Shown here: positions 9,040-30,067 of the stretch, one piece after another
How positions within the stretch are numbered: position 1 is the first letter of the stretch
Layout: the number at the start of each line of letters is the position of its first letter
Source of the DNA: Micromonospora sp. NBC_01813
Lineage (GTDB): Bacteria; Actinomycetota; Actinomycetes; Mycobacteriales; Micromonosporaceae
NCBI RefSeq assembly: GCF_035917335.1
Contig: NZ_CP109067.1
Span: forward strand, 4,773,001 to 4,837,000
Length of the DNA stretch: 64,000 nucleotides
Direction of reading: 5' to 3'
Program-made: the position numbers and the translations under genes
Notes under the pieces: model-generated
What the model was told of the DNA's origin: nothing
Seen by the model: only the letters and a program-made list of their open reading frames with translations
Database searches by the model: none

Positions 9040-9115
9040 CGAATCCTGCACTGTCGGGCCGAAGTAGGAAGCAGGGCAGAGCAGCAGCCGCCCTCCATGG
9101 GACTTCTGGTTTTTC

Positions 9116-9131
9116 TCCCTCAAGTGAGGGA
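9116..9131. promoter_or_regulatory. Palindromic operator-like site upstream of the pPIWI_RE operon
   Basis: Perfect inverted repeat TCCCTCA-AG-TGAGGGA (7-bp arms, 2-base spacer), followed on the plus strand by the unusually AT-rich caatat. It lies 77 bases upstream of the first pPIWI_RE gene, in the space shared with the divergent XRE/ImmA gene. An HTH repressor could bind here (inference). Confidence 0.45.
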
Positions 9132-9535
9132 CAATATCGCGAAGAGTCGACGACCACAACGAGGACCCTGATGGAGGATTTCGACTGTCGCGACCAGGCG
9201 GCACCCGCACTGGCTGGACCCCTGGACAGCAAGCCGCGCGCCCGCGGCAGGCTCGACCGGGGTCGACGCCGCAGTGGTCCGGCCTGCCGGGGCGCCGGCG
9301 TCTGCGGGCAACCGGGCCAAATCAAGGCGGACCCGAACCGCCCCCTTGGGCGAGCCCTTGCGTTCAGGCGGTCTCGGCCGGGTGTGAACCGACGCGGCCG
9401 TGGAACAGCCTCGGGCGTGTGGCCGACGTCCCGGTACCGTTGAAGGGGCGTGGGCTGCCGTGGCCGTAGCCTGGGGCGGCGGTGTCGTCGCCAGCCGAAC
9501 GACGTCACACGGGGTAACTGATCAACAATGAGCCG
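9132..9535. other. Divergent intergenic region upstream of the XRE/ImmA gene
   Basis: About 400 bases between two divergent transcription units. It probably holds promoters for both. Short open frames occur, but none has a ribosome site or recognisable protein features. Confidence 0.4.
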
Positions 9536-12583: not shown

Positions 12584-15571
12584 GTGCGGGAAGGGGTCGG
12601 AGCCGGGGTGAGTGTCGAAACCGAGGTCGTGGAGCGGGACGAGGGGGCGTCGGCAGGTTACCCACCGGGTGCGCAGGTGCTGGTCCGCGACGAGCTGTGG
12701 CTCGTCCGGAAGATCACGAAGACCAGCCGCGACGGGTGGATGGTCGAGGTCATCGGCGTGTCGCCCTTCGTCCGTGGGACCGAGGCGGTGTTCTTCGATC
12801 AGCTTGACGATATCCGGGTCCTCGACCCGCGTCGGACGGAGCTGGTCGCCGACGATTCGTCGAACCACCGTCGCGCCCGCCTGTACCTGGAGGCCGTGTT
12901 CCGAAAGACCCCGCTGCCGCAGACGGAGCGAGGGCTGGCGTTGGCGGACGGGTTCCTCATGGACCATCAGGTGCACCAGCTTCGGCCGGCTGAGCTAGCC
13001 CTGTCGATGGAGAACCCGCAGCCGCGCATCCTCATCGCAGACGTCGTAGGACTGGGCAAGACGCTAGAGATCGGTATCCTGCTGGCCGAGCTCATTCGTC
13101 GCGGCCGCGGGGAGCGTATCCTGGTCGTCACGCCGCAGCATGTCCTGGAGCAGTTCCAGCGCGAGCTGTGGGCCCGGTTCGCCATCCCGCTGGTGCGGCT
13201 GGATTCGACGGGTATCCAGCGGATGCAACGGGAGATCCCGGCGGGCCGCAACCCGTTCGCCTATTTCAAGCGTGCGATCATCTCGATCGACACGTTGAAA
13301 AGCGCCACCTACGCCCCGCATCTGGAGCGCACCGACTGGGATGTCGTCGTCATTGACGAGTCGCACAACCTGGTCAACCGGGGCACCAAGAACAACGACC
13401 TGGCCCGGCTGCTCGCCCGCCGAACGGACGCGCTGGTGCTGGCCTCTGCCACCCCGCACAACGGCCGGGCGGCCTCGTTCGCCGAGCTGATCCGCATGCT
13501 TGACGAGGCGGCGATTGCGGATCCGACAAAGTACGACGTGGAAAGGCTGCGTCACCTGTACATCCGCCGGACCAAGACATCGCCGGAGGTGCGCGACGGT
13601 CTGCGCGGTGCGTGGGCGGACCGGGGCCCGTCCCAGCCGATCCCCGCCCAGGCGACCGACAGCGAGGCGGCAGTGCTCGAGGAACTGGGTAGCCGCTGGA
13701 TTCCCGCCGACGAGGGTGGTCAGTCCGTCAGCACGTCGCAGCTCATCCCGTACCGGTTGCTCAAGTCCTTCCTGTCGTCGCACCGCGCCCTGCTGGCGAC
13801 GATCGAGACCCGCCTGCGGACGCTCGGGGATCCGCTTCGTCACAAGCCGGCTGAGTCTGTAGCCCGCAATTCGGAGAGTGAAGCACTGCTGACTCTGCGT
13901 GACCTCGCAGGGCGTGTCCGAGACGACGAGGCTGCCAAGTTCCGCGCGCTCGTGGACGAGCTGCGCGAGATGGGTGCGGGCCCCGGCTCGGACGTTCGCG
14001 TCGTCGTGTTCTCGGAGAGCATCCCCACGTTGACCTGGTTGGCCGCGTCCGTTCCGGAAGCATTGGGGTTCAGCCGCGGATCGGGCCCAGATGGACGACG
14101 GCCGTGGCTGCGGTACGGCGGGGTGGTGCAGGTCATGCACCGCGATTCCACGGTTGACGAGGAACAGAACAGCATCGTCGAGCGGTTCGGGCTCCGTGAC
14201 GATCCCGTGCGGTTACTGTTCACCGGTGACATCGCGTCAGAGGGCGTCAACCTGCACCAGCAGTGCCACCGGCTGATCCATTACGACCTTCCCTGGTCCT
14301 TGATCCGCATTGAGCAGCGCAATGGTCGGATCGACCGCTACGGCCAGGAACACGAGCCACAGTTCCGGGCGCTGATCCTCACCTGCGACCTGCCGTGGCG
14401 GACCGATGAGGAGACCGGCCACCCGCGAACCCTGGACGACCGTCTGGTCGGGGAGAAGCTGCTGGTACGGGAGGCGGAGGCGCACAAGATCGAGGGGTCC
14501 GCCGAGGCGGTCACCGGCCTGTACCGGGCGCAAGAGGAAGAGGACCGGCTGATTCAGGACCTGATCGCCGGACGCACCGTGGAGCAGTCCATCGGCCGGT
14601 CGCGTCAGAGCGGGTCGGCCTTCCTGGCCGGCCTGCTGGGCCAGGTGGGCGCCGTTGCAGAACATTCCGAGGTCCGGACAGCCACCGTTCTGTCCCTGTT
14701 CCGGTCCACGGAGGACTACTTCGAGGAGGCGCTGCGGCAGGTATGCCGGCCGAACCCGGAAGACCACCTGTCGCTGCGGCGCGACAATGACGGCACGATC
14801 GCCTTCGAGCCGCCGGCGGATCTACTCCACCGGTTGCGGTCGCTGCCCAGGTCATACCTGGACGAGCAGCGGATCCTGCCGACGAAGAGTGAGCCAGGCC
14901 GGATGCGGATCACCTTCGCCAAGCCGCTCGCTGAGGCCCGCCTGCGTGCGGCGCGGGAAACGTCGAAATCCCAGTGGCCCAATGTCTCCTACGTCACCGA
15001 CGTACATCCGGTGCTGGACTGGCTGACCGACAAGGTGCTCGTGGAGGTCGGCCGGCATCAGGCGCCGGTGATGGCCGCGACGACTGAGGAACCGGTGTTC
15101 CTTATCCAGGGCGTGTGCTCCAACACGCTGGGCCGCCCCACCCTAGTCAAGTGGATGGCGGTGGCCGGCCTGACTGACCGCCCCCGGGTCGAGGAGTTGA
15201 CGCCTGCGCTGCTGCACCGTTGGGGCGTCGGCCCGCAGATGCCGGGCCGCGCTCAGCCGCGTGACCTGCCGGGGCTGAGCAGGCTCGTCCCGGCCGCCGT
15301 CGACCAGGCACGCCGGTACGTGGCCGAACGCAGCGGCGCATACCGGCAGGAGGTGTCGAAGCTGCTGGCCCCGTACCGAAGCCGGATCGGTACATGGCAC
15401 CAGGAGGCCCTGTTCGCCGCGCCCCGAGGCGCAGCCAAACAGGCTGTCGACGAGACGGCCGAACGCCTGCGTCACCTGGTGGAGGCGTTGGAGACCGTCG
15501 GCGAACCGATGCTGCGCGTGCTGGCGGTCCTCGAACCGTCCGACCGAGCGGCGGGAGGCGGAAACCTGTGA
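12584..15571 (+). CDS. drmD: SNF2-family helicase, DrmD-like (DISARM)
   Basis: 995 residues from the GTG at 12584 (AAAGGG upstream), or 987 from a GTG at 12608. An SWI2/SNF2 ATPase: Walker A 'DVVGLGKT' (about 152), DESH box (about 254), 'SATPHN', and the helicase C motifs 'ASEGVNLHQQ' and 'RNGRIDRYGQ' (about 550-580). This domain order matches DrmD of class 1 DISARM anti-phage systems. It would translocate on phage DNA and act with the downstream methyltransferase and DUF1998 helicase. Its GTGA stop overlaps the methyltransferase start, giving coupled translation. RapA-like helicases are the nearest alternative, but the gene context favours DISARM. Confidence 0.82.
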   Translation: MREGVGAGVSVETEVVERDEGASAGYPPGAQVLVRDELWLVRKITKTSRDGWMVEVIGVSPFVRGTEAVFFDQLDDIRVLDPRRTELVADDSSNHRRARLYLEAVFRKTPLPQTERGLALADGFLMDHQVHQLRPAELALSMENPQPRILIADVVGLGKTLEIGILLAELIRRGRGERILVVTPQHVLEQFQRELWARFAIPLVRLDSTGIQRMQREIPAGRNPFAYFKRAIISIDTLKSATYAPHLERTDWDVVVIDESHNLVNRGTKNNDLARLLARRTDALVLASATPHNGRAASFAELIRMLDEAAIADPTKYDVERLRHLYIRRTKTSPEVRDGLRGAWADRGPSQPIPAQATDSEAAVLEELGSRWIPADEGGQSVSTSQLIPYRLLKSFLSSHRALLATIETRLRTLGDPLRHKPAESVARNSESEALLTLRDLAGRVRDDEAAKFRALVDELREMGAGPGSDVRVVVFSESIPTLTWLAASVPEALGFSRGSGPDGRRPWLRYGGVVQVMHRDSTVDEEQNSIVERFGLRDDPVRLLFTGDIASEGVNLHQQCHRLIHYDLPWSLIRIEQRNGRIDRYGQEHEPQFRALILTCDLPWRTDEETGHPRTLDDRLVGEKLLVREAEAHKIEGSAEAVTGLYRAQEEEDRLIQDLIAGRTVEQSIGRSRQSGSAFLAGLLGQVGAVAEHSEVRTATVLSLFRSTEDYFEEALRQVCRPNPEDHLSLRRDNDGTIAFEPPADLLHRLRSLPRSYLDEQRILPTKSEPGRMRITFAKPLAEARLRAARETSKSQWPNVSYVTDVHPVLDWLTDKVLVEVGRHQAPVMAATTEEPVFLIQGVCSNTLGRPTLVKWMAVAGLTDRPRVEELTPALLHRWGVGPQMPGRAQPRDLPGLSRLVPAAVDQARRYVAERSGAYRQEVSKLLAPYRSRIGTWHQEALFAAPRGAAKQAVDETAERLRHLVEALETVGEPMLRVLAVLEPSDRAAGGGNL

Positions 15572-18500
15572 GCAGCGTCTTCGACTCGATCATCAATCGG
15601 GGCGAGTACCTGTCCGCCCACTACTTCGCCGACCAGCTCGGCACCGAGCTTAAGAAGCGACTGTTAGCCACCTGGGCGATTCGAGAGGGCGACGAGTACG
15701 ACAACCGGGCGACGCCCCGGCAGATGGTGCGGGCACTGCGCCGCGAGTACCTGACGCCTAATGTCCGTGGCTACCTCGCCGCCGGGCCCCAGGCCGACCC
15801 GTACGACCTGTTTGACCTCGGCACCTACAACGACCCCGAGTGGCGCAAAAGCCTGGTCGAGTGGCACCAGAATGTGCTGCGCGCACTCGGCTACGAACCC
15901 GCTCCCACCGAGCTGACAGTCCATCGGGCCGGCCGCGAACACGCCGTGCCTGTCGCCTACCACGGCCCCGGGATCGTGGCGCTGGACTGCGGATGGGCCG
16001 CGGACGGCGACGCCGCGTTCGACCCGGCCGGCGCCGGCAGGCTCCTGTCGCCGGTGCGGGTCAACGCCAGCGAACGCTACGAAACCGGGGCGGCCCTCGC
16101 GTCATGGCTGTTCCACGCCAACATCGGCCGTCCGGACTGCCCCCCACCACGCTTCATCCTCCTGCTGCACGGCGGCGTCATCGTGCTCGCCGACCGCAAC
16201 TCGTGGGCCGAAGGCCGCTACCTCGCCGCTAACCTCGACGCCGCACTTGAGCGCAACGACCGCGCCCAGTCCGGTGAGCTGGCCACGCTCGCAGCCTTGT
16301 TCTGCCGCGAGATGCTCTGCCCCGGCGAGAACGACACTGCCCCGGCGATGGACGCCCTACTCAAGGGATCCACCGTCAACGCCGTCGGGGTGTCCAAGGA
16401 GCTGCGCCACGGCGTCCAGCGCGCCGTGGAAATCATCGCCGGCGAGGTCCTTCGGCGGATGGCAGAGCCCGTCAACGACGTCACGCCGGCAGACATCGAG
16501 GAACCGCGCCTGCCGTTCGCCCGGGAACTGACCCGCGACTGCCTGCGATACCTCTACCGGATCCTGTTCCTGCTGTACGCCGAGGCCCGTCCCGAACTGG
16601 GCATCCTGCCCGCCGACGACGGCAACTACGAGGCAGGTTACTCAGTGGCGCGGCTACGGGAACTGGTCGCCCGCGACGAGGAACTGATGGAGGAGGAGGC
16701 GAGGAACAGCTTCCACCTCTACCACTCCCTTGACCTACTCTTCAACAAGGTCAACCTCGGTCACCGCCGCTACGGCACCGAGCCGGACGACGACCAGCCC
16801 GGCGACGACGAGCAGACCCGGCAGGAGAAAGCCGAGCGGCGCAGCGAGGACATCGGCCTGCGATTCGACCCACTGCGCAGCGAGCTGTTCGACCCGGACT
16901 CCATCCGGCTCATCGGCCAGCGGGCGCTCGACCCGCGGTGCGACGAGGAAACGGCGCCGCGCTGGCTCGACCTGCGCCTGCGCAACTCAGCCCTGCACCG
17001 CGTCCTGCGCCTGCTCACGATGAAGAAAGCCCGGCCAGGCACACTGGGCGGCTTCGTGTCCTACCGAAACCTCGGCATCAACGAGCTCGGCGCCGTGTAC
17101 GAAGGGCTGATGTCCTACACCGGCATCATCGCCGGTGAGGAACTGTGCGAGGTCGCCAGGGGCGGTGATCCTGACGAGGGATCGTGGCTCATCCCGGCCC
17201 GCCGGCAGAACGATTACCCAGACGACACACTGGTCCACTATGACGAGGAGGACGCCCGCCACGGGCTGCGCGGTGTCAAGAAATACGAACGGGGCTCCTT
17301 CGTCTACCGCCTCTCCGGCCGGGAACGCGAAACATCGGCCTCGTACTACACCCCCGAGTCGCTCACCACCGTCACGGTGGAGCTGGCGCTCAAAGAGCTA
17401 CTCGGCCAAGGCGCCGACAGCGACGCCGACCAGACACGCGCCGCCAGGCTCTTGTCGTACAAAATCTGCGAGCCGGCACTCGGCTCCGGCGCCTTCCTCA
17501 ACGAGGCGATCAACCAGCTCGCCGAGGAGTACCTACGCCGACGGCAGAAGGAACTAGACCGCTCGATCCCCGCCGGCGACGTGCTGACCGAGAAGCAGAA
17601 GGTCAAGGCATACATCGCCCTGCACAACGCCTACGGCGTCGACCTGAACGCCACGGGACGCGAGCTGGCCGAGGTTTCGCTGTGGCTGAACACCATGCAC
17701 CCGGGCATGCAGGCGCCGTGGTTCGGGCTACACCTGCGCCGCGGCAACTCGCTCATCGGCGCCCGCCGCGCCATCTACAGCGCCCACGACGTCTGCTCGC
17801 CAGAGAAGGCCTGGCTGAAAGCCAAGGGCAGCCTGCCGCCGACACCGTTACCGCTGCACCGCGACGGGCGACCGCAGCCACTACCCGACGACGCAGTGCA
17901 CCAGTTCCTGCTGCCCTCGCCGGGATGGGCCGCGATCACCCACTCCACCGAGGCGAAGAAGCTCGCCAAGGACGAGGTCGACCGGCTGGCCGCCTGGCGG
18001 CGAGGACTCCTCCAGCGCCCGGCTCGCAGCACCGCCCACCTCAACGCCGACGGCACCCCGAAGATCGACCGCCGTACCGGAAAACCGCGGCAGGAGGCTG
18101 CATCGCAGTTCACCAGGTTGCGCGACGCCGCCCGGCGGGCCGAGTTCCTGTGGTCGTGTGTAGTCAAGAGGATGGAGCTGTCCGAGCGGGAGATCGCCCG
18201 CCGGATCGACGTCTGGGGCGCAGACCCGGCCGACCCGGAGTACGCCTTCCTCCGGCGGCCCGAGCAGGCCGTGCCGAAGGAGAAGGTGTACGCCGAGCTG
18301 TTCGAGGCAGCGGGGACGCCGTACCGGCGCCTCAAAACTGTGATGGACGCCTGGTGCGCGCTGTGGTTCTGGCCCACCGACCGGATCGGCCTGCTCGACG
18401 GCACGCATCCCGAGTACGCGGCTGCCGTCGCGGAGATCGGCGTGGAGGCCCTTACTCAGCTACTCGGCGGCATCGTTGACGCCGAGGTACCGGTAGACCC

Positions 18501-21069
18501 CGCGCCCACCGGGGAAGACAGCGGCCAGCCGCCGGCCGCGGCGGACGAGCAGCCGCAGGCGCCCGAGCCGGTCTTCTTCCGCGCGATGACGCTCTTCCCG
18601 GTCGCCGGTGAGCAGATGGCGCTGGACGAGACGGAGTGGGAGACCGCCGCCGCGACGCCGGTCGCCACGTCCGAGCCGAAACCGAAGAAGGCGCCGAAGC
18701 CGAAGCAGCCGGCACGCCGCCCGACCATCCCACTGACAAGCGTCGATGACTGGCTGGACTTCCTGGAAGCCATGCTCGGCGCGGCCGACGTTCCTGACGG
18801 TACCCTGATCGACAAGTACGACGACCTCGACCAGATGAAGGAGTTCGAGGAAAACCTCGTCCTCTTCATGGGCATGGACAACGCCGATCCAGAGGCACGG
18901 TTCCCCTGGCTGCGGACGGTCCGGGAGCTCGCCGACCGGCACGCGTTCCTGCACTGGGAGCTGGACTTCGCGCTGGTCTTCGCGGAGAACGGCGGCTTCG
19001 ATCTTCAGGTCGGCAACCCGCCGTGGGTCCGGCCACGCTGGAACGAGGACGCCGTCTTGGCCGAGTTCGAACCCTGGTTCGAGCTGGAGGAAAAGCCCGA
19101 TCAGGAGGAGAAGGACCGCCGCCGCCATGAGTTACTGGAGCGCGCGGAGGTCCGGGGGTATGTGCTGCGCGAGCTGACCGCGACCAGCGGGCAGGTCGCC
19201 TTCTTCGGATCTACCCAGGTGTACCCGCTGCTCGTCGGCACGCAGCCGGACCTGTACCGGGCGTTTATGTGCCAGGTGTGGGCGCATCAGTCGGCCGGCG
19301 GCACGGTGGGCCTTCTGCACCCCGACAGCCACTTCACCGGCGACAAGGAGGGGCCGCTGCGGGGGGAGGCGTACCGGCGGCTGCGCATCCACGGAGACTT
19401 CGTCAACGCAGGGCAGCGCTTCTTCCCCGAGCCGGTGGGACACACGGCGCACTTCGGCGTCCACATATACAGCCGGCCCCGAGAAATCAGGTTCGACCAC
19501 CTGTCCTGGCTGGTGTCCACCGACGCGCTTCGGCACTCGCGGGACCACGATGGATCGGGGGACGTGCCGGGTGTCAGGTACAAGAACCGGGAGTTCGACG
19601 AGCGGCCGCACCGCAGCCGCGTCGTCATCGTCACGGAAGACGTGCTGGCGGTGTGGCGGAGGCTGCTAGACGAGGAGGACCGGCCGCTGTCCCAGGCGCG
19701 GCTGCTCTTCCCAGTTAGCACCGCCGAGGCCGCCGCGATCGAAGCGCTGGCCGCGTACCCGCTTCGGCTGGCCGAGTTGCTGCCGCAGATCTCCTCCGGC
19801 TATCACGAGAGTGGATCGAAGAGGGCCAGACTCATCGAGTACAACCGCGTCGATAGGGCGACCGGGCGCCAGTACCAGCCGGCGACATGGGGAGAAGTCG
19901 TCCTGAAGGGCATCCAGGTGAGCACGGCCACGCCAATCTTCAAACGGCACGACGCCAACAGCAACGACCCCTACGGCGTAGACCTGATCAGCCTGCCGTC
20001 CGACTTCGTGCCCGACACCGAGTACCTCTGCGTGCCGGGCCGAGACGCGGCGTTCCGGGAGGCGCAGGACCGGTGGGTGGACCACGAGGAACTGCGACGC
20101 CTGCGCACGGACGCGGTTGAGGTGACCCGGGCGCGAGCGCGCCTTGCCTCGACACTCGGGATGCCGGAGGTTGAGGTCGAGGACGAGCAGGTCGATGCGC
20201 TGCTGGTCGAGCAGGCTCGCCGGCCATACGTCGACTTCTACCGCCTGGCGTGGCGGCGGCAGGTGGCACCGAACACGGAGCGCGCCTTGTACTCGGCGCT
20301 AATCCCACCCGGGCCGACGCACATCCATGCCGTTCACAGCATGGTCATGCCGAGCATTCACCAGACCGTGCTGGTGGCCGGATTCTGGACGTCTCTCCCG
20401 CTCGACTACTTCCTTCGCGCTACGGGAAGGGGCGACCTCCAAGTCGCTGGAGCGAAGGTACTGCCCGCTCCGTCCGTAGCTCATCCGCTCGCCTCGGCGC
20501 TGTTGCTGCGTACCCTGCGGTTGAACTGTCTGACCAGTGTGTACGCGGGCCTGTGGGCGGAGCTGTTCGACCCCGCGTGGCTCGACGGCGAGACCTGGGT
20601 CTTCGAGTGGCCTGGCTTGCCGCCGCTGAACGACGTCACGCCGAACTGGCGGCCCGAAACGCCGCTGCGGACCGAGCGGGCCCGCCGGTCTACGCTGGTC
20701 GAGATCGACGCCTTGGTCGCCGTCTGGCTCGGGATGAGCGCCGACGCGCTCGTGGCCGCGTACCGTGGGCGGTTCCCGGTGCTGCAGAAGTACGAGGCTG
20801 TCACGTGGTTCGACGCCGACGGGTGGAAGCTCGCCGGCAACGCCCGCACCTTCGGCCAGCGGCAGACCAAGCAGACATGGGCGCAGTTCGAGGCGTACTG
20901 GAAGGACCCGGAGAACACTCCGCCGCCCGACGGCTACACGCCGCCGTTCTACAAGGCGGAGCGGGAGGCTGAGATGCGGGCGGCGCACGCCGTCTTCCAG
21001 GCTCGACTGGACGCCGCGGTCGCCCGAGGCGAGTGGGATCACGGGACAGCAGAGGTGAACGCGTCGTGA
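15568..21069 (+). CDS. drmMI: Very large adenine-specific DNA methyltransferase, DrmMI/PglX-like
   Basis: 1833 residues from a GTG preceded by GGGAGG; the upstream open frame is DrmD shadow. SAM-binding motif I is 'EPALGSGAFL' (about 634), followed by 'GVDLNATGRELAEVSLWL' and 'GNSLIG'. The catalytic NPPW lies only at about residue 1149, so roughly 500 residues, including a Lys/Pro/Glu-rich linker, separate motif I from motif IV. The family is N6-adenine class I methylase (Eco57I/PglX/DrmMI). It should mark host DNA so the system spares it; the C-terminal 500 residues are the likely target-recognition part. Both ends overlap neighbouring genes by 4 bases. Whether it also restricts is unknown; I see no clear nuclease motif. 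Confidence 0.82.
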   Translation: MSSVFDSIINRGEYLSAHYFADQLGTELKKRLLATWAIREGDEYDNRATPRQMVRALRREYLTPNVRGYLAAGPQADPYDLFDLGTYNDPEWRKSLVEWHQNVLRALGYEPAPTELTVHRAGREHAVPVAYHGPGIVALDCGWAADGDAAFDPAGAGRLLSPVRVNASERYETGAALASWLFHANIGRPDCPPPRFILLLHGGVIVLADRNSWAEGRYLAANLDAALERNDRAQSGELATLAALFCREMLCPGENDTAPAMDALLKGSTVNAVGVSKELRHGVQRAVEIIAGEVLRRMAEPVNDVTPADIEEPRLPFARELTRDCLRYLYRILFLLYAEARPELGILPADDGNYEAGYSVARLRELVARDEELMEEEARNSFHLYHSLDLLFNKVNLGHRRYGTEPDDDQPGDDEQTRQEKAERRSEDIGLRFDPLRSELFDPDSIRLIGQRALDPRCDEETAPRWLDLRLRNSALHRVLRLLTMKKARPGTLGGFVSYRNLGINELGAVYEGLMSYTGIIAGEELCEVARGGDPDEGSWLIPARRQNDYPDDTLVHYDEEDARHGLRGVKKYERGSFVYRLSGRERETSASYYTPESLTTVTVELALKELLGQGADSDADQTRAARLLSYKICEPALGSGAFLNEAINQLAEEYLRRRQKELDRSIPAGDVLTEKQKVKAYIALHNAYGVDLNATGRELAEVSLWLNTMHPGMQAPWFGLHLRRGNSLIGARRAIYSAHDVCSPEKAWLKAKGSLPPTPLPLHRDGRPQPLPDDAVHQFLLPSPGWAAITHSTEAKKLAKDEVDRLAAWRRGLLQRPARSTAHLNADGTPKIDRRTGKPRQEAASQFTRLRDAARRAEFLWSCVVKRMELSEREIARRIDVWGADPADPEYAFLRRPEQAVPKEKVYAELFEAAGTPYRRLKTVMDAWCALWFWPTDRIGLLDGTHPEYAAAVAEIGVEALTQLLGGIVDAEVPVDPAPTGEDSGQPPAAADEQPQAPEPVFFRAMTLFPVAGEQMALDETEWETAAATPVATSEPKPKKAPKPKQPARRPTIPLTSVDDWLDFLEAMLGAADVPDGTLIDKYDDLDQMKEFEENLVLFMGMDNADPEARFPWLRTVRELADRHAFLHWELDFALVFAENGGFDLQVGNPPWVRPRWNEDAVLAEFEPWFELEEKPDQEEKDRRRHELLERAEVRGYVLRELTATSGQVAFFGSTQVYPLLVGTQPDLYRAFMCQVWAHQSAGGTVGLLHPDSHFTGDKEGPLRGEAYRRLRIHGDFVNAGQRFFPEPVGHTAHFGVHIYSRPREIRFDHLSWLVSTDALRHSRDHDGSGDVPGVRYKNREFDERPHRSRVVIVTEDVLAVWRRLLDEEDRPLSQARLLFPVSTAEAAAIEALAAYPLRLAELLPQISSGYHESGSKRARLIEYNRVDRATGRQYQPATWGEVVLKGIQVSTATPIFKRHDANSNDPYGVDLISLPSDFVPDTEYLCVPGRDAAFREAQDRWVDHEELRRLRTDAVEVTRARARLASTLGMPEVEVEDEQVDALLVEQARRPYVDFYRLAWRRQVAPNTERALYSALIPPGPTHIHAVHSMVMPSIHQTVLVAGFWTSLPLDYFLRATGRGDLQVAGAKVLPAPSVAHPLASALLLRTLRLNCLTSVYAGLWAELFDPAWLDGETWVFEWPGLPPLNDVTPNWRPETPLRTERARRSTLVEIDALVAVWLGMSADALVAAYRGRFPVLQKYEAVTWFDADGWKLAGNARTFGQRQTKQTWAQFEAYWKDPENTPPPDGYTPPFYKAEREAEMRAAHAVFQARLDAAVARGEWDHGTAEVNAS

Positions 21070-24000
21070 GGCCGACGCTGCAGGCGCGGGCGCTGAAGGA
21101 GAGCCTGCTGCAGTATCTGTCGACCACGTACGCGTTGGCAGACGAGGGCGCACGGGAGGCCCTGCACCGCTTCCTCGGCGACGAGACGTCGGGCATGTTC
21201 CGCGGCCCGTACCTGCGGATCCGCACGCCGTTCACGCTCGCCGGACCGGGTTGGGAGCGGCATCTGCAGTGGCGGCGCGAGGGCTGGACGCCGTACGCCC
21301 ACCAGGCGGCGGCATTCGCCCGACTGACCTCCGCCAATGAGCACACACCGCAGCCGACGCTCATCACGACCGGCACGGGCTCTGGCAAGACCGAGTCGTT
21401 CCTCTACCCGGTGCTGGACCACTGCCGGCGGGAGCGCGCCGCCGGCAGGGCCGGCATCAAGGCGGTCCTGCTGTACCCGATGAATGCGCTGGCAACCGAC
21501 CAGGCCCAGCGGATCAACGAGTTGCTCATCGGCAACCAGGACGAGCTCGGCCGCGTCTCGGCCGGGCTGTACATCGGCGATCGGGCGGCCCTGCGCTACG
21601 ACCGGGTCCGTACCACGCGCTCGGAGATGCAGCTCACGCCGCCCGACATTTTGATCACCAACTACAAGATGCTGGACCTGCTGCTGCAGCGCGACGACGA
21701 CCGGCCGCTGTGGCGCGACGCTGACATCCGGTACGTGGTGGTCGACGAGTTCCACACCTACGATGGCGCGCAGGGCACCGATGTGGCGATGCTGCTGCGC
21801 CGCCTCGCGGCCGCAGTCGGGTGGCCGGACGAACGGCGACCGCTCGGCGACATCTGCCCGGTGGCGACGTCGGCCACGCTGGCGTCGGCCACCGACGAGG
21901 AGGCAATCGCAAGTCTGCTTGCCGTGGCGACGGACGTCTTCGGCGCCGAGTTCACCCACGAGTCGATCGTCGGGGAGGACCGGTTGTCGGTCGACGAGTT
22001 CATCCCGATGGACGACCTCCGTCAGGCGCTGCCGTTGCCGTCACCGGACGAGATCCTGGCGCTGCCCGATCCCGCCGTCAGTGACAGCGCGCTGCTGGAT
22101 CTCATCGAGGCGGTCACGGCGATCCGGGATCCGGACCGGGCGCTGCTGGGTAGCAACCTGAAGCGGCACCTGTTCACCAGGGCCGTACTCATGGCGTTCA
22201 GCGGCGACCTTCGAATCAACGCCGAGGTGCTCGACACGATGTGGAGGGCCGGCGCCTCCGGCTGGGCCGCGACGATCGCGCGGCAGCCGGAGAAGGCCGC
22301 CGAGGCGCTGGCGCGGTTCGTGGCGTTGCTCTCCCACGCCCGCGACCCGGACGCGAAGCCCGGCGAGGTGCGGCCATTCGTTCACGTCGAGGTCCACCAG
22401 TGGGCCCGCGCGGTGACCCGCCTGCTGCGCGGTGTGCTGCCGTGGCCGCGCGCGGAGTTCCGCTGGGATGTCGCAGGCAATGAGGACAGCATGGCGCGGG
22501 GTGGAAACCCTGTCGTGCCGGCTACCACAGCCACGGCCGGTCAGACCGCGAACCTGTTCCTTCCCGCGGTCTACTGCCGGTCGTGCGGCCGGTCGGGCTG
22601 GGCCGTGTTCTCGCCCGAGAGCGACGACGGCGAAGTCCAGTTCGACACTTTCAAGATCCGTCGGGCGGCTGCCGGCCAGGACAAGGTACGTGTTCGGTAC
22701 CTCATCGCCGGCACCGACCGGGAAGCGCGGGAAGGGTCAGGGCCGACAGTCATGCCGGTCAGTGCCCGTCGCGGTGCGAGCGGCTCGTCGGCAACGCAGG
22801 GTGTGGCCGGTACGTTGCTGGTGCTGGACGCCGTCCGGCAGCGGCTGCGCCCGCCGGACCCGGCCGGTGACTATGACACCGTGACCGGGGAGCCCCGGCT
22901 GACGGCGCGGGACTCGGCGTTCGTGCTGGCCAACGTCGGCCCGACGGCGAACACCGCGGCGCGGGAGGACTGGTGTCCCGCCTGCGGGGAGCGCAACGCG
23001 ATCCGGTTCCTCGGCACGGGCGCAGCCGCGGTGGCGGCGGCCGCGATCACGCAGCTGTTCACCGGCGGCGAGCTGGACAGGGAGGCAGGCGAGGCCAAGA
23101 CGTTGATGTTCAACGACTCGGTGCAGGACGCCGCCCACCGCGCCGGGTTCGTGGCCAACCGCTCGTACACCTTCTCGTTGCGGGCTCTGCTCACCGCGCA
23201 CCTCAATGAGCGCGACGGCACGGCCCTGAATGATCTGATCGCCGACGTCGTCGCGGCCACCACGGATCCCGCGACGCTGGCGGCCGTCGTGCCGCCGGAC
23301 TTGCATGGCCTACGCGGGGTTGACCGGCTGTTGTCCGGTCGTGGTCGGGGCGGTGACCTGGCGACCTGGAAGCTGGTCGGGCAGCGGCTGGCGTTTGAGA
23401 CGCTGATGGAGTTCGGGTTCCGCTCCCGCAACGGTCGCACGCTGGAGTTGACCCGTACCGCCGCCGCGCACGTGCGCATCCCCGATCCGGCCGCCGCGGT
23501 CGCGCTGGTCCGGGAGATCCACGCCGAGTTGGACCGCGACGGGCTGCCGGTGGTGGCCCAGGACGACACCCGCTACCTGGCCTTCCTGCGCGTCTTCCTG
23601 GAGCGGCTGCGCACGCGCGGTGCGGTCGCGCACACGTGGCTGGACCAGTACATCAACGAGGCGGGAACTAGCCGCTACTTCATCTGGGGGCGGCGGCCGG
23701 TCGGGATGCGGGCGTTCCCGAGCCGGGTCGCTGCCCCGGTGTTCCTGCTCGCCGCGCCGAAGGCGGGCAGTGAGTTCGACATCGCGGGCGGGCGGCTGTC
23801 CTGGTACGAGCGCTGGGCGGGTCGTTGCCTGGCGTTGCCGCGCGAGCTGGCGGGAGAGTTCTGGGGTCTGCTGCTGCCCAAGCTCACCTCGGCTGGTTTG
23901 CTGTCGGTGCGCACGCCCAACGACACCTCCGGGCGGGTCTACGGGTTGCGGCCCGGCAATGTCGAGGCGTTGCTGCTCGACGACAAGGAGGTGTCGCAGT

Positions 24001-27000
24001 CGTTCGTGCGCTGCCCGGTCTGCTCCTGGGAGCAGACGGTTCACCCGTCGCTGCTGGATCAGTGGCGTGACCAGCCGTGTCCGTCGTACCGGTGCCGCAC
24101 CGGTCGCCTGGTCGCCGGGGACCGTCCGGACGGCCTGGGACGCCACCACCGCGACCGCGACTACACCCGCGACTACTACCGAGGGCTGTACCGCCGGGCG
24201 GGCACCTACCAGATCGTGACGGCCGAGCACACGGGCCTGCTCACCCGGCCGCAGCGGGAACGCGTCGAGGTGGCGTTCAAGCGCAACTTGGGCGACAGTG
24301 ACGCCCGGTACAACGACCCCAACGTGTTGTCCTGCACGCCCACGCTGGAGATGGGCATCGACATCGGTGACCTCTCGGCGGTGGTGCTGGCGGCGCTGCC
24401 GCGCCGGCCCGCCAGCTACGCCCAGCAGACCGGCCGGGCCGGCCGCCGCACCGGCAACGCGTTTCTGCTGACCATCCCCGACCGGCGGCGGCGAGACCTG
24501 TACTTCCTGGACCGGCCCAGGGATCTCATGGCCGGCGCGATCGTGCCGCCCGGCTGCTACCTGTCGGCGGTGGAGATCCTCCGTCGTCAGTACGTCGCCC
24601 ACCTGCTCGACCTAGCGGCCGCCGAGAAGCTGGTCCGCGGCGACGGGATCGTCCTGCGGCCGCTGCCGCGCCGGGCACCCGCGCTGTTCGGCCCGTCCGG
24701 ATACCTCACCGACCTCGTCCAAGTCGCCACGGCGCAGGGCGCGACCCTGGTCGAGGGCTTCCTTCGGCTGTTTCCCACCGGAATCAGCGAGCACGTCAAG
24801 GACGAGCTGAGGGTTTTCGCCACCCGCCGGCTGGCTTCCGCTGTCGAGGAGGCCGAGCGCGAGTGGCAGCGGATGGAAACCCTCCTTCGCACCCGGCTGC
24901 GGGCAATTGACGAGGCGTACGCCGAACTGCACGACACGGACCCGGAGCAGGCGCGGGAAAAGGCCGAGTTGGACGCCGAGCGGCGCGTCGTGGGCAAGCG
25001 GCTGCTGCTGCGGGGCGACACGTCGGCTCAGGCCACGCTGTGCGACCTCGGCCTGCTCCCGAACTACGCGCTGATCGACACGACCACCACGCTGTCGGCC
25101 ACCGTCTACGGCGAGGACGGGGTCGTCGACCCCCGGACCGGACGTCCACGCATCACCGCCGAGAACATGACGTACCAACGTCCGCGACGCTTCGCCCTGT
25201 CGGAGCTGGCCCCAGGAAACACGTTCTACGCCCAAGGCTACCGGCACGAGATCACCGGCCTGGAGCTGATGACCGGCGGGCGGCCGGACTGGCACAGCTG
25301 GCGTGTCTGCCCGGCGTGCGGATACGTGCGCACCGAGCACGCCACCAACGACCGGTCACCGTGCCCTCGCTGCCACAGCACCCAGATCGCCGATGACGGA
25401 TCCTGCCTCTTCCACGTGGTGGAGCCCGTCACGGTGACGTCCCGCGACCGGCGGGAGGACGCCCGCATCCGTGACGACCAGGACGAGCGCGACCGCCGCT
25501 TCTACACCGTCATCGACGCGGTCGACTTTCCCGAGGACACCATCGCTCGCGGATCGTGGCGGCACGTCCGTCAGACCTTCGGCGTCGACTACTGCCGGCA
25601 GGCGATGATCCGCCGCGTCAACATCGGGCCGGCCCGATTCGACGCCCCGCCCCGGGACACCTTCGCCGGGCACACCGTGCGGCTCAACCCGTTCCACGTG
25701 TGCACCGGATGCGGCGCGGCCACCGCAGACGGCAAGCCGGTCTTCGACCACGACACCGACGCGCTGACCTCCTCGGCCGCACGTAACCCGAAGCTCAAGC
25801 ACCACCGGCCCTGGTGCCCGCTACGGCGCGCACGGCGCGACGGTATCACCCAGGAGCCGGTACTGCTGGCCCATCAGCTACGCACCGAGGCGATCCGCGT
25901 GCTGCTGCCGGCCGCGACAGCGGACGTCGACGCCAAGGTGCACTCCTTCCGGGCGGCCCTGCGCATGGGCATCGACCTGCACTTCGGTGGAGATCCCCAG
26001 CACCTCGACACCACCATCGCCTCCATGCCGGACCAAGCCAGCGGAGAACGCCGCTGGTTCCTGGTGGTGTTCGACGAACTGCCCGGCGGCACCGGCTACC
26101 TCGACCGGCTGACCAAGCCGGACGCCTTCAAGGACACCCTGGCCAAGGCATACGAGGCGCTGCGCAGCTGCCCGTGCGCTGAGGAACAGCGCCGGGCGTG
26201 CCACCGGTGCCTGCACCGCTACACCCCCGAATCGCTGCAGGACGTCGTGTCCCGACGCACGGCCATAGCGATGATCGAATCGCTGCTGTTCACCGCCGCC
26301 GGCACCGACGGGTGGGACACCGAGGAAGTCACCCACACCGGGCTGATCGGACTGGACCAGCAGGTCGAGTCCGACCTGGAGGCGCGTTTCCTCGCGGCCC
26401 TGCGGGAGTGGGCCACAGTGACCGACGACGTCGCCCTCGATGAGGACGGGCACGCCAGCGGACATCTGCGATTCACGTCAGGCGCCGACATCGTGCACTG
26501 GCGGCTCACCGCCCAGCAGCAGGTCAGCGGCACCCGCACCGACTTCACGTTCACCCGCGTAGACGGGCCGACGCAGAGTGTGAAGGTCTACCTGGAGGGC
26601 TACCGGTACCACGCCACCCGCGAACACAACCGCATCGCCACCGACGCCGCACAACGCACCCGCCTGCGCGCCGACGGCCACGCCGTCTTCCAAATCACCT
26701 GGGCCGACATCGACCTCTTCGAGGGCCGCACCACCAATGCAGATCCCGTCTGGCCGCCCTATGCCGGGATGGCACAGGAACAAGCCAAAACGGCCTACGA
26801 GCAGTACGGCGGGCAGCGGGTGGACCTACCCAGGGCGGTGTTCGCCAACCCCATCGACACCATGATCGCCTATCTGCGCGATCCCGACGCCGGCCGCTGG
26901 GCCCGCCGGGCGAACGCGCTGGTAACCGGGCTGCTCGCCACGCCCGGCACGGTCCCGATCATCGCTACCGGGAAGCGTCACGTGCTCGCCGCGGCGCTCC

Positions 27001-27776
27001 GCGCCGAACTGGCCCGACACGGAACGGACACCGGCCACGGAGCGGACGGCCAGCACGCGTCGGTCCACCTCTACCGGGCGCACGACCCAACCGGCCTGCC
27101 GATCATCGTCGCGCTCGACGCCGCCGAACCCGACCGGCTGCGGTGGTCCGCGCTGGTGGTGCTCGACGACGCCGAGGCCGTGCTGGACACCGACGCGCAC
27201 AAACAGCGCTGGCGAGCGTGGCTGTACTGGACCAACATCACCCAGTTCCTGCCTTACAGTGGCGGGGACGGTGTCCAGCTGGCGGCCAGCCGGGCCGCCG
27301 AGTTCGAGGTCGAGACGCTGGCCATCTGCGGCGGACCCGGCGAGATCGACACGCTAAGCGGCCGCTACCAGATGCCGGAGGCCGCACCGGCCCCGACCAC
27401 CGTCGGCGCTGACGCCATGCAGCCGCGGCGCGACACGACCTGGGACGAGGACATCCTCGAGATCCTCCGCGAGGAGCCGGACGAATCCGCTGACCTGCTG
27501 CGCCTCGCCGAAAAGCTCGCCGCCCGGGGCAAGCGGGCACCGGTCTTCGGCTACGAGCTGGGCTCAGGCCGCTGGCTCGCGGATTTCGGCTGGGCCGACT
27601 CCGACGTCAAAATCGCTGTCGTGCACCACGACGCCACGGCCGACAGCGACGAGGCACGCCGCCGCGACGAGGCGTACATCGACGCAGGCTGGACGGTGCG
27701 CACGGCAGAGGACTGGCTGGCCCACCTCGACGAACTGATCGCCCGGCTGCCTGACACGGAAGGCTCCACCCGATGA
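21066..27776 (+). CDS. Giant DEAD/DEAH helicase with DUF1998 and nuclease-like C-terminus (DrmA/DrmB or DruE-like)
   Basis: 2236 residues from the GTG at 21066 (AGAGGTG upstream, GTGA overlap with the methylase). Motifs: Walker A 'TGTGSGKTESF' (about 101), DEFH (about 224), 'TPTLEMGIDIGDL' (about 1090) and 'QQTGRAGRRTG' (about 1119). A DUF1998 region follows with 'DELPGGTGYLDRL' (about 1669) and a Cys cluster 'C.C...C.RCLHRY' (about 1702). Beyond it, 'VKVYLEGYRYHA...ITWADIDLF' (about 1830-1885) and the last 65 residues (ending 'AGWTVRTAEDWL') resemble Vsr-type nuclease folds. In DISARM, DrmA and DrmB are separate; DruE of Druantia is a similarly giant DUF1998 helicase. This looks like a fused or DruE-like form. 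Confidence 0.78.
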   Translation: MRPTLQARALKESLLQYLSTTYALADEGAREALHRFLGDETSGMFRGPYLRIRTPFTLAGPGWERHLQWRREGWTPYAHQAAAFARLTSANEHTPQPTLITTGTGSGKTESFLYPVLDHCRRERAAGRAGIKAVLLYPMNALATDQAQRINELLIGNQDELGRVSAGLYIGDRAALRYDRVRTTRSEMQLTPPDILITNYKMLDLLLQRDDDRPLWRDADIRYVVVDEFHTYDGAQGTDVAMLLRRLAAAVGWPDERRPLGDICPVATSATLASATDEEAIASLLAVATDVFGAEFTHESIVGEDRLSVDEFIPMDDLRQALPLPSPDEILALPDPAVSDSALLDLIEAVTAIRDPDRALLGSNLKRHLFTRAVLMAFSGDLRINAEVLDTMWRAGASGWAATIARQPEKAAEALARFVALLSHARDPDAKPGEVRPFVHVEVHQWARAVTRLLRGVLPWPRAEFRWDVAGNEDSMARGGNPVVPATTATAGQTANLFLPAVYCRSCGRSGWAVFSPESDDGEVQFDTFKIRRAAAGQDKVRVRYLIAGTDREAREGSGPTVMPVSARRGASGSSATQGVAGTLLVLDAVRQRLRPPDPAGDYDTVTGEPRLTARDSAFVLANVGPTANTAAREDWCPACGERNAIRFLGTGAAAVAAAAITQLFTGGELDREAGEAKTLMFNDSVQDAAHRAGFVANRSYTFSLRALLTAHLNERDGTALNDLIADVVAATTDPATLAAVVPPDLHGLRGVDRLLSGRGRGGDLATWKLVGQRLAFETLMEFGFRSRNGRTLELTRTAAAHVRIPDPAAAVALVREIHAELDRDGLPVVAQDDTRYLAFLRVFLERLRTRGAVAHTWLDQYINEAGTSRYFIWGRRPVGMRAFPSRVAAPVFLLAAPKAGSEFDIAGGRLSWYERWAGRCLALPRELAGEFWGLLLPKLTSAGLLSVRTPNDTSGRVYGLRPGNVEALLLDDKEVSQSFVRCPVCSWEQTVHPSLLDQWRDQPCPSYRCRTGRLVAGDRPDGLGRHHRDRDYTRDYYRGLYRRAGTYQIVTAEHTGLLTRPQRERVEVAFKRNLGDSDARYNDPNVLSCTPTLEMGIDIGDLSAVVLAALPRRPASYAQQTGRAGRRTGNAFLLTIPDRRRRDLYFLDRPRDLMAGAIVPPGCYLSAVEILRRQYVAHLLDLAAAEKLVRGDGIVLRPLPRRAPALFGPSGYLTDLVQVATAQGATLVEGFLRLFPTGISEHVKDELRVFATRRLASAVEEAEREWQRMETLLRTRLRAIDEAYAELHDTDPEQAREKAELDAERRVVGKRLLLRGDTSAQATLCDLGLLPNYALIDTTTTLSATVYGEDGVVDPRTGRPRITAENMTYQRPRRFALSELAPGNTFYAQGYRHEITGLELMTGGRPDWHSWRVCPACGYVRTEHATNDRSPCPRCHSTQIADDGSCLFHVVEPVTVTSRDRREDARIRDDQDERDRRFYTVIDAVDFPEDTIARGSWRHVRQTFGVDYCRQAMIRRVNIGPARFDAPPRDTFAGHTVRLNPFHVCTGCGAATADGKPVFDHDTDALTSSAARNPKLKHHRPWCPLRRARRDGITQEPVLLAHQLRTEAIRVLLPAATADVDAKVHSFRAALRMGIDLHFGGDPQHLDTTIASMPDQASGERRWFLVVFDELPGGTGYLDRLTKPDAFKDTLAKAYEALRSCPCAEEQRRACHRCLHRYTPESLQDVVSRRTAIAMIESLLFTAAGTDGWDTEEVTHTGLIGLDQQVESDLEARFLAALREWATVTDDVALDEDGHASGHLRFTSGADIVHWRLTAQQQVSGTRTDFTFTRVDGPTQSVKVYLEGYRYHATREHNRIATDAAQRTRLRADGHAVFQITWADIDLFEGRTTNADPVWPPYAGMAQEQAKTAYEQYGGQRVDLPRAVFANPIDTMIAYLRDPDAGRWARRANALVTGLLATPGTVPIIATGKRHVLAAALRAELARHGTDTGHGADGQHASVHLYRAHDPTGLPIIVALDAAEPDRLRWSALVVLDDAEAVLDTDAHKQRWRAWLYWTNITQFLPYSGGDGVQLAASRAAEFEVETLAICGGPGEIDTLSGRYQMPEAAPAPTTVGADAMQPRRDTTWDEDILEILREEPDESADLLRLAEKLAARGKRAPVFGYELGSGRWLADFGWADSDVKIAVVHHDATADSDEARRRDEAYIDAGWTVRTAEDWLAHLDELIARLPDTEGSTR

Positions 27777-30067
27777 CCGCACGGCTCAGCCTCTACCGCA
27801 AGGCCGAACAGGAGCTTTACAAACTCGACCGCGTGGTGAAAGCACAGTTCTACGACTTTTGCCACATCTTCCGGCAGAACCCGGAGCAACCCGGCCTCGA
27901 CCTCAAGAAGCTCAAGGGCGGCTCCAGGATCTATCGCGCGAAGATCAACCAGTCGTACCGGGCCCTCCTCGCTCCCGTGGGCGTCGACGCCGACGGCACG
28001 CAGAGCTGGCTCGTCGTGGCCGTCCGGCATCGCAAGGACGTCTACGACGAACTTCAGGTCGCCGTCAACCGAGTCACCGGCGAGATCGAGTTCGTCGACC
28101 TCGCCGTCGTCGGCGACAGCGCCCTACGCCGTGCCGGCATCACGCTTACGACAGCCGAGCCAGACACCGACCCGGCGACGAAGCCGACCCCGGAAGCGCC
28201 AGCGACTCCGCCCGCGCGGCCGCTGCTGGCCGGCTACGACGCCGACCAACTCCGGGAACTCGGAGTCGCCGACCAGATCGTCGACCTGGCCCTCGCCGTG
28301 ACCAACGACGCCGAGCTGGACGAGCTACTCGATGGCGCCCCGCCCCTGTCCAAGGACATCTTGTACGGCCTCGCGGCCGGGATGGGCATCGACGCGGTCC
28401 GCGAGGAGATCACCGCGCCTGTTCAGCTCGACCAGGAACCAGACCCGGCAGACCTGGCCGCTGCGTTCGCCCGTACCAAAGTCACCACCGTCGACAAGCA
28501 CGTGCAAGCGGCGATCGAGGAGGGCGACTTCCGGGCCTGGCGGGTCTACCTTCACCCCGCGCAGGAAAAGATCATCGGACGGCAGTACGGCGGTCCCGCC
28601 CGCGTTTCCGGCGGTCCCGGCACCGGCAAGACCGTCGTCGCGCTACACCGGGTCAAGCACCTCGCCGAAGCGCTGCCGCCCGGCACCGACAAGCCCATCC
28701 TCGTGACGACCTTCACCGCCAACCTTGCCAACGACCTCCGACTTCGACTGGCATCCCTTGTCGAGCCGCACCTGTTGACCCGGGTCGACGTCACGCACAT
28801 CGACCAGCTGGCCGCCCGGGCCGTCGGCGAGAACACCACCCAGCGGACCCGCAAGCGACGCATCAGCGACCACGCAGCCGTCACGGAGATGCGGCAACTG
28901 CTGCTCGAACTCGACGAACACCGCTGGGACGCAGACTTCCTTGTCGAAGAATGGGAGCAGGTGATCCTTGGCCAAGCGGTGCAGAGCCGCTCGGACTACT
29001 TCCAGGTGCGCAGGGCCGGCCGCGGTCGTGCCCTCTCCCGTCCCGAGCGCAGCCAGGTCTGGAAGCTGATCGAACAGCTCACTGCCCGACTGAACAAACT
29101 CGGCGTCGAGACCTGGGGCCAAGCCGCGGAGCGCGCCGCCCGGTACGAGATGGAGCGCGCCGCGACGATCGAGGCTCGCCGGACCGCCGGGTCATCGACC
29201 AACGACAGTTCCAGCTCCGGGCACCTCAGCTACCGATACCGGCACATCGTCGTCGATGAGGCGCAGGACCTACGGGCAGCGCACTGGAAGATGCTGCGCG
29301 CCATGGCAGATCCGAACCTGCCCGACGACATCTTCATCGCTGGGGACACCCACCAGCGGATCTACAATCACCAGGTCTCCCTCGGCGCCTTGGGCATCCA
29401 CATCCGCGGCCGGTCCGCCCGGCTGACCCTCAGCTACCGCACCACTCGGGAGATCCTCGTCCGCGCGCTGCTCATCGCCGACGACAAAAGCATCAGCTAC
29501 GACGACCTCGACGACGGCACGGACACCCTAGCCGGCTACCGGTCGATCCTGCACGGCCCACCGCCAGCCTTCGCCGGCTACGGCACCTGGGAGGACGAAC
29601 TAGCAGGGCTGGCCACCACGCTGGCGCACTGGCGAGCCGAACTGTCCACCAGCGAGAACGGCGTATCCCTGGACCCGGCCGGGCACATCGCGGTCTGCGT
29701 CACGGACCACGAGCGGGTCAGCCAGGTGATGGACTACCTGACCGCCAAGGCAAGCATGACCTGCGCCGAGCTGACCAAAGACGGCCCGGTGGGCGACGGC
29801 GCCATCCACGTCGGCACCATGCACCGCTTCAAGGGACTCGAGTACCAGCGGCTCGCGATCGTCGGCGCCAGCGAGGGCGTCCTCCCCCGCGCCGGCGTCG
29901 AGCGATACCGTAGGGAGGACCCGGTGCGGTACGAGCGCGAGTTGCGCAAAGCGCGGTCCCTGCTGTTCGTTGCCGCCACCCGCGCCCGTGACGCCCTCGC
30001 CCTAAGCTGGCACAACGCGCCGAGCCCGCTGCTTGCTGCGGTACCGGTACCGAGCGACCGGGACTGA
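27773..30067 (+). CDS. RelE/ParE-like domain fused to UvrD/Rep-type SF1 helicase
   Basis: 764 residues, starting with ATGA overlap on the previous stop. Residues 1-115 have the RelE/ParE toxin fold pattern, with 'LKGGSRIYRAKI' and 'VVAVRHRKDVYDEL'. A linker leads to an SF1A helicase: Walker A 'GGPGTGKT' (about 279), 'VVDEAQD' (about 492), 'LSYRTTREIL', 'GTMHRFKGLEY' and 'FVAATRARDAL'. Fusing a predicted ribosome-dependent RNase fold to a helicase suggests an effector gated by DNA or RNA unwinding (inference). No separate antitoxin gene is seen, so the RelE part may be inactive or controlled within the complex. It is the last gene of the operon, in the position where DISARM often has the PLD nuclease DrmC. 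Confidence 0.82.
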   Translation: MTARLSLYRKAEQELYKLDRVVKAQFYDFCHIFRQNPEQPGLDLKKLKGGSRIYRAKINQSYRALLAPVGVDADGTQSWLVVAVRHRKDVYDELQVAVNRVTGEIEFVDLAVVGDSALRRAGITLTTAEPDTDPATKPTPEAPATPPARPLLAGYDADQLRELGVADQIVDLALAVTNDAELDELLDGAPPLSKDILYGLAAGMGIDAVREEITAPVQLDQEPDPADLAAAFARTKVTTVDKHVQAAIEEGDFRAWRVYLHPAQEKIIGRQYGGPARVSGGPGTGKTVVALHRVKHLAEALPPGTDKPILVTTFTANLANDLRLRLASLVEPHLLTRVDVTHIDQLAARAVGENTTQRTRKRRISDHAAVTEMRQLLLELDEHRWDADFLVEEWEQVILGQAVQSRSDYFQVRRAGRGRALSRPERSQVWKLIEQLTARLNKLGVETWGQAAERAARYEMERAATIEARRTAGSSTNDSSSSGHLSYRYRHIVVDEAQDLRAAHWKMLRAMADPNLPDDIFIAGDTHQRIYNHQVSLGALGIHIRGRSARLTLSYRTTREILVRALLIADDKSISYDDLDDGTDTLAGYRSILHGPPPAFAGYGTWEDELAGLATTLAHWRAELSTSENGVSLDPAGHIAVCVTDHERVSQVMDYLTAKASMTCAELTKDGPVGDGAIHVGTMHRFKGLEYQRLAIVGASEGVLPRAGVERYRREDPVRYERELRKARSLLFVAATRARDALALSWHNAPSPLLAAVPVPSDRD

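Follow-up and report, generated by a model that had tools for sequence, protein, structure and literature searches.

Positions 12584–30067 of the Micromonospora sp. NBC_01813 DNA analysed here (64,000 nucleotides in all, hereafter the window) encode an ARMADA type II operon (ArmA-ArmB-ArmC-ArmD), a bacterial virus-defence system whose naming and testing date from 2025. A conserved Ser/Thr protein kinase gene at 11366–12541 heads this operon and belongs to the unit. The four genes are known, and the upstream kinase is the part that was not found described in the available text of the literature checked. We estimate at roughly 70% the probability that the operon represents ARMADA type II of a kinase-headed actinomycete subclade, working as a kinase-regulated restriction machine that is active only during infection.

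A preliminary description of this DNA had placed four long overlapping + strand genes at 12584–30067, and both the open reading frames and the three 4-base overlaps (a gap of −4 at each of the A/B, B/C and C/D junctions) were confirmed. As the limits of the unit, these coordinates are right for the four genes and start too late, having missed the kinase gene. The features are as follows.

11366–12541, + strand: ArmK (a label coined here), Hanks-type Ser/Thr protein kinase, about 391 residues (Pkinase, E = 5.4e-35)
12584–15571, + strand: ArmA, BrxHII/RapA/DrmD-like SNF2 helicase, 995 residues (PADLOC, Pfam and NCBIfam profiles); an alternative GTG start is possible at 12608
15568–21069, + strand: ArmB, PglX/DrmMI-like DNA methyltransferase, 1833 residues (profiles; GxG and NPPW motifs), type IIG-like by profile, including an Eco57I match
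21066–27776, + strand: ArmC, YprA/DruE-like DEAD helicase with fused MZB (DUF1998) domain, 2236 residues (profiles); Pfam domains DEAD at residues 79–275, Helicase_C at 1049–1128 and MZB at 1629–1716
26373–26723, + strand: first C-terminal nuclease-like domain of ArmC, PD-(D/E)xK/Vsr-like, residues ~1770–1886
27435–27746, + strand: second C-terminal nuclease-like fold of ArmC, residues ~2124–2227, probably inactive
27773–30067, + strand: ArmD, RelE-like N-terminal domain and GajB-like UvrD helicase, 764 residues (UvrD, E = 4.4e-23; GajB-type PADLOC hits)
27773–28057, + strand: RelE-like domain of ArmD, residues ~1–95 (family profile and predicted fold)

The four genes constitute an ARMADA type II core

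ARMADA type II was named by Bell et al. (bioRxiv, September 2025; PMC12458937) and tested in E. coli. The main text of that preprint describes a strict order of genes for a BrxHII-like helicase, a PglX-like methylase, a YprA-like helicase and a GajB-like helicase, with the RelE-fused GajB-like helicase almost always present (PMC12458937). It reports that the system of E. coli NCTC 12900 protected against 13 of 80 phages, that removing any one Arm gene ended this protection, and that defence was direct and non-abortive; of eight point mutations in ATPase or methylase motifs, six abolished protection, and ArmB G605A and ArmD D454N reduced it (PMC12458937).

In the window these four genes recur in unchanged order, among them a YprA helicase with fused DUF1998 and a possible C-terminal nuclease, followed by a RelE-UvrD protein. 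Profile searches bore out the identities previously assigned to them (SNF2 helicase, methylase, DUF1998 helicase and RelE-UvrD protein), complemented in the case of RelE by a family profile and a predicted fold; none of the four proteins reached an NCBIfam cut-off. The order A-B-C-D was kept in 59 of the 61 public actinomycete loci with enough flanking DNA (from 69 fetched with ArmC), and because so many loci share it, the arrangement is not a product of chance.

For direct comparison we used the locus of E. coli KCTC 2571, presumably the same strain as ATCC 8739, where Zorya II genes and a gene for a DruE-type helicase precede the operon, as in the published array. The window proteins differ considerably from their E. 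coli counterparts, with BLAST identities of 33% for ArmA, 33 and 30% for two segments of ArmB, 28% for ArmC and 31% for ArmD, over alignments spanning 78–96% of the window proteins. Nonetheless, all eight of the residues mutated in E. coli are identical in the window: ArmA K159 and D258 (tested as K136 and D236), ArmB G639 and N1150 (G605 and N971), ArmC K108 and D227 (K110 and D234), and ArmD K286 and D495 (K266 and D454). The window also differs in having the upstream kinase gene, which none of the E. coli loci seen possesses. ARMADA of the E. coli type occurs frequently in that species: DNA of a plasmid-borne ARMADA operon from E. coli was matched in 527 of 5426 complete E. coli genomes (513 of them over at least 80%).

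A helicase tree of 31 rows placed 29 ArmC proteins, those of E. coli and the window among them, on one side of a branch with support of 99, the outsiders being only one Druantia III DruE protein and one ARMADA type I protein. Like the ArmA and kinase trees below, this is a quick tree with long-branch warnings; judged from it, the YprA homologue of the window falls in the ARMADA II clade. The preliminary description had called for defence-profile searches and for a tree of the 2236-residue protein: the profiles do include DruE-like ones, and the tree groups the protein with E. coli ArmC.

These results bear upon the earlier proposal of a new DISARM/Druantia hybrid, a distinct and little-described subtype, for the four genes. 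The proposal draws on the mixed DrmD, DrmMI and DruE profile hits, and it was right that the locus differs from both class 1 DISARM and Druantia, with a DruE-like helicase and first two proteins that are DISARM/BREX-like. However, an identical arrangement of the same four genes is already named and tested as ARMADA type II, which is what the preliminary description itself had said would refute it, and ArmC groups with E. coli ArmC, making a novel hybrid scarcely credible.

Known systems were also considered individually. Class 1 DISARM shares the DrmD-like helicase and DrmMI-like methylase with the window, but it has separate DrmA and DrmB proteins and the PLD nuclease DrmC, whereas the MZB domain of the window is fused to the helicase and the tail looks PD-(D/E)xK-like. 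This assignment was rejected because DEAD and MZB domains lie in one 2236-residue protein and no PLD domain was found by Pfam in the four operon proteins, PLD-named profiles matching P0001 over helicase parts only; a PADLOC search of the eight neighbouring proteins gave no DrmC hit. Druantia type III is similar in that the window helicase has DruE-like profile hits, but here that helicase is accompanied by a DrmD-like helicase, a PglX-like methylase and a RelE-UvrD protein. It was judged unlikely because ArmC groups with ARMADA and away from the one DruE used; DruH was absent from the PADLOC matches listed for the four operon and eight neighbouring proteins, the DruH content of that library being unchecked. 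ARMADA type I, in which the YprA gene usually comes first and RelE-UvrD is lacking (an order seen in Nocardioides locus L217), was rejected because the YprA gene of the window is third and RelE-UvrD is present.

An N-terminal RelE-like domain on the UvrD helicase, as in ARMADA type II, is indicated by family-level and structure-based comparisons. A single-sequence search with the ArmD N-terminus gave a weak match to ParE_toxin (E = 0.059, below the family cut-off), and in a search of 45 rows the window row matched no family, with the two ParE families matching 2 and 3 of the rows. Searched against PDB, a profile of the N-terminal family matched RelE/YoeB chains (best E = 3.3e-6). A search with the predicted model placed Thermus thermophilus RelE at the top (E = 2.2e-6), with 18 matches at E ≤ 0.001; the predicted local distance difference test score of this model was middling overall (74), with blocks spanning residues 1–90 at 85–96. 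The domain is too diverged for a clear single-sequence match. The meaning that we attach to the RelE and Vsr motif residues is an assumption of ours.

A kinase gene accompanies ArmA in a large group of loci

The armK stop codon lies 42 bases before the start of ArmA. While the open reading frame is listed from 10895, homology begins near the ATG at 11366, which has a purine-rich stretch ahead of it. The product contains the motifs GxGxxG, HRDLKPQN and DFG, and Pfam detected kinase-type domains only, with no NERD domain. It is 35% identical to the best paralogue in the host, and its best PADLOC hits are PD-T4-6 models. It is also similar by profile to the MADS kinase mad6 (E = 1.2e-49), although the mad6 profile has 659 positions and the comparison concerns the kinase alone.

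To determine how widely the kinase occurs, two samples were examined. The first combined the 69 loci fetched with ArmC, a Streptomyces plasmid locus (L004) and 20 genome stretches, from which we retained loci where the N-terminus of ArmA could be read and no fewer than 900 bases of upstream DNA were available. In each of the 71 that qualified (59 loci from named genomes, plasmid locus L004 and 11 stretches; L049 and L068 come from the same genome), a kinase is encoded directly upstream of ArmA on the same strand. An HRD pattern could be recognised in 68 of the 71 kinases, some of which are cut by the edge of the locus, and L070 reads HRDLTPKN. Identity to the window kinase was approximately 50–81% in 59 of the 60 named loci; the edge-cut L090 gave 43%.

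The second, less biased sample was an ArmA search of 200 genomes from the host's family; 58 of the 71 loci above lie outside this census, the overlap being the 11 stretches, L068 and L119. At E ≤ 1e-100 there were 50 ArmA places in 45 genomes, one of them a fragment without the N-terminus. Using eight kinase queries and requiring the kinase to end within 2.6 kb of ArmA, an upstream kinase was found at 31 of the 49 remaining loci and not at the other 18. The available upstream DNA was 3.2–3.7 kb in all 18 negatives and at least 1.9 kb in the positives. The negatives serve as a background control from the same kind of genome, and seven were shown to carry all four Arm genes. ArmA was at least 45% identical to that of the window in all 31 kinase-positive loci, while in 17 of the 18 negatives it was 42–44% identical; the last is a fragment, 54% identical over 353 residues. 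Among the rows of the ArmA tree, kinase-negative loci comprise those of E. coli, cyanobacteria, alphaproteobacteria and Tsukamurella, together with seven of the 18 negatives from the census.

The kinase and ArmA are tightly co-inherited

The ArmA tree contains 98 rows, of which 81 are kinase-bearing, 14 lack a kinase and three are missing the upstream DNA. The 95 labelled rows require a single change, the branch leading to the kinase loci has support of 98, and within this group the kinase has not been lost from any sampled locus with upstream DNA. Across 39 loci, distances between kinases correlated with distances between ArmA proteins (r = 0.94; none of 2000 permutations as high), and among 32 nearer loci the correlation was 0.93. 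The kinase tree shows the same main groups as ArmA. At L046, L047, L143 and L144 the kinase gene overlaps ArmA by 4 bases (with starts picked by script).

The correlation of distances, the 4-base overlaps and the absence of labelled kinase-free loci from the kinase group all argue against the alternative that this is plain ARMADA type II, in which the kinase travels along as a regulator, transcriptional or general, and contributes nothing to defence. This explanation would accommodate the E. coli and cyanobacterial loci without a kinase. It also gains from two alphaproteobacterial loci (L177 and L178) that have WYL genes upstream of ArmA; because a WYL regulator occupies the upstream slot there, that slot may be only regulatory. 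On balance we consider it unlikely.

The kinase-ArmA pair is tighter than the remaining operon. In four family genomes with genes between ArmB and ArmC (loci L035/L061, L037/L062, L040/L063 and L041/L064) the kinase still adjoins ArmA, and in G143, G172 and G092 the ArmA-kinase pair and ArmC-ArmD are on different contigs. Another explanation would make the kinase an independent defence or abortive-infection gene, like PD-T4-6 or Stk2 (the latter likeness being our assumption), that merely neighbours ARMADA. The PD-T4-6 models at the top of its PADLOC matches and the location of the window in a defence island would favour such a gene, but kinase presence follows ArmA phylogeny in an all-or-none manner and the kinase stays beside ArmA in rearranged loci, leaving this explanation improbable.

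A proposed role for the kinase

The closest functional precedent is the Pgl system (BREX type 2) of an actinomycete, where a PglX-type methylase acts together with a Ser/Thr kinase (PMC4365076). In the available text of that study, PglW autophosphorylates, its kinase activity is required for resistance, and signalling to the PglX methylase is proposed by the authors (PMC4365076). ArmK is nevertheless different from PglW, which in the text available has 1400–1600 residues and combines a NERD nuclease with tandem kinases (PMC12839542), whereas ArmK is a kinase only, of approximately 391 residues; as Pfam found no NERD domain, its identification as PglW was rejected. Because the PglW kinase is the best precedent, we propose by analogy that the kinase has a regulatory role and may switch ARMADA on or off.

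Within the kinase-regulated ARMADA type II that we favour, ArmB would mark host DNA by methylation, as its protein families suggest. The SNF2-type translocase ArmA together with ArmC, a YprA helicase with a putative C-terminal PD-(D/E)xK-like nuclease, would find, translocate along and process unmarked phage DNA; the ArmC tail, again judging from families, would cut it, and ArmD (RelE-UvrD) would assist as a second helicase. The kinase would be co-expressed with the Arm genes and, like PglW, would respond to a signal from infection or nucleic acid by phosphorylating one or more Arm proteins. Such gating would keep a potentially self-toxic restriction machine active only in infection. A 2026 review, in the text available, lists ARMADA among the modification systems of unknown restriction mechanism (PMC12904381). 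The more specific idea of a five-component phospho-regulated system, whose kinase was acquired a single time by the ancestor of a large clade and gates the machine during infection, we regard as evenly balanced.

Several observations weigh against this model. In E. coli, ARMADA II protects although no kinase accompanies it, and therefore the core machine needs none. Many of the sampled loci are closely related and mostly from Streptomyces. In the kinase tree the operon kinases do not form one clean clade (three changes, at least two of them forced); one kinase beside a stand-alone ArmD is nested among them, and two host paralogues lie nearby without strong support. The most distant operon kinases (L137 and L141) are 33–34% identical to ArmK, no closer than the host paralogue, so that their case rests on position. 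Self-marking of this genome by ArmB is a prediction from sequence. For the ArmC tail, the place of a Vsr-type PD-(D/E)xK nuclease in ARMADA type II, structure comparison gave PD-(D/E)xK-like matches of modest Z mixed among unrelated rows, Foldseek found no significant match, and the window row had no Pfam match; the family alignment of this region contains invariant acidic and His residues.

Neighbouring genes and variant loci

The window is a defence island. A three-gene pPIWI-RE (Ppr) system, encoding PIWI/RNaseH, DinG/Z and Y-REase proteins, occupies 1894–9210 on the − strand, near tRNA-Ser and tRNA-Arg genes at 477–676. Between it and the kinase gene, a + strand gene at 9536–10618 encodes an XRE-ImmA/IrrE protein (PADLOC RmrA, E = 6.8e-132). 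Among the compared loci, many with little upstream DNA, this gene was found only in a 98% relative (L048). Downstream, a gene for a T2SSE secretion-type ATPase (35127–36485) lies within a mostly + strand run of genes at approximately 32–44 kb, perhaps a pilus or secretion cluster.

Several relatives differ in gene order. The inserts between ArmB and ArmC at L035, L037 and L040, which consist of GmrSD-type DUF262 genes, depart from the strict type II order as published, and a Cylindrospermopsis plasmid (L216) breaks it in another way, with ARMADA II-like genes arranged C-D-A-B. At L032, L039 and L041 a RAMA-CBS protein of 478–495 residues is encoded near ArmC, and ArmA and ArmB are not adjacent. 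On a Tsukamurella plasmid (L005), ARMADA II lies directly downstream of genes for a UvrD protein, a helicase and a DUF1998 protein, another UvrD gene follows, and ArmC is split into two annotated genes. In L217, from a plasmid of Nocardioides sp. JS614, the ARMADA type I-like operon is located beside annotated DISARM drmA/drmB and McrBC-like genes.

Additional kinases and other genes also recur around these operons. Seven of the 19 downstream stretches searched (L158, L159, L161, L163, L164, L166 and L167) have a second kinase, of a different family, directly downstream of ArmD, and hence a kinase at both ends of the operon. L043–L045 contain a tandem second copy of ArmD with a kinase in between, and at L140 a kinase lies beside ArmD with no ArmA-C nearby; these loci suggest that ArmD and a kinase may make up a pair of their own. 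In one subclade (L052–L058 and L063) the kinase gene is preceded by a conserved gene for ~540–650 residues, whose predicted product resembles an adenine methylase that has a DNA-binding part at its N-terminus. Approximately 4 kb downstream of ArmD, about 19 loci, mostly from Streptomyces (L069–L089 and others), share a conserved − strand gene for ~355 residues, which, judged by eye, may encode a restriction-type nuclease.

Implications for ARMADA in actinomycetes

The main text of the ARMADA preprint, to which this check was confined with figures and supplements outside it, contains no instance of "kinase", "PglW" or "Streptomyces" (PMC12458937). No link between a kinase and ARMADA was found in the available text of the literature checked (including PMC12839542 and PMC12904381), which is not proof of absence. 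According to the same preprint text, tests of ARMADA have been limited to a set of four genes from E. coli (PMC12458937). If many actinomycete versions carry a conserved kinase, four-gene constructs may be incomplete there. A five-component system, if real, would add to Pgl/BREX type 2 another case in which a protein kinase is paired with a PglX-type methylase. The comparison also makes testable a question raised by Pgl, namely what draws protein kinases into defence systems that use PglX-type methylases.

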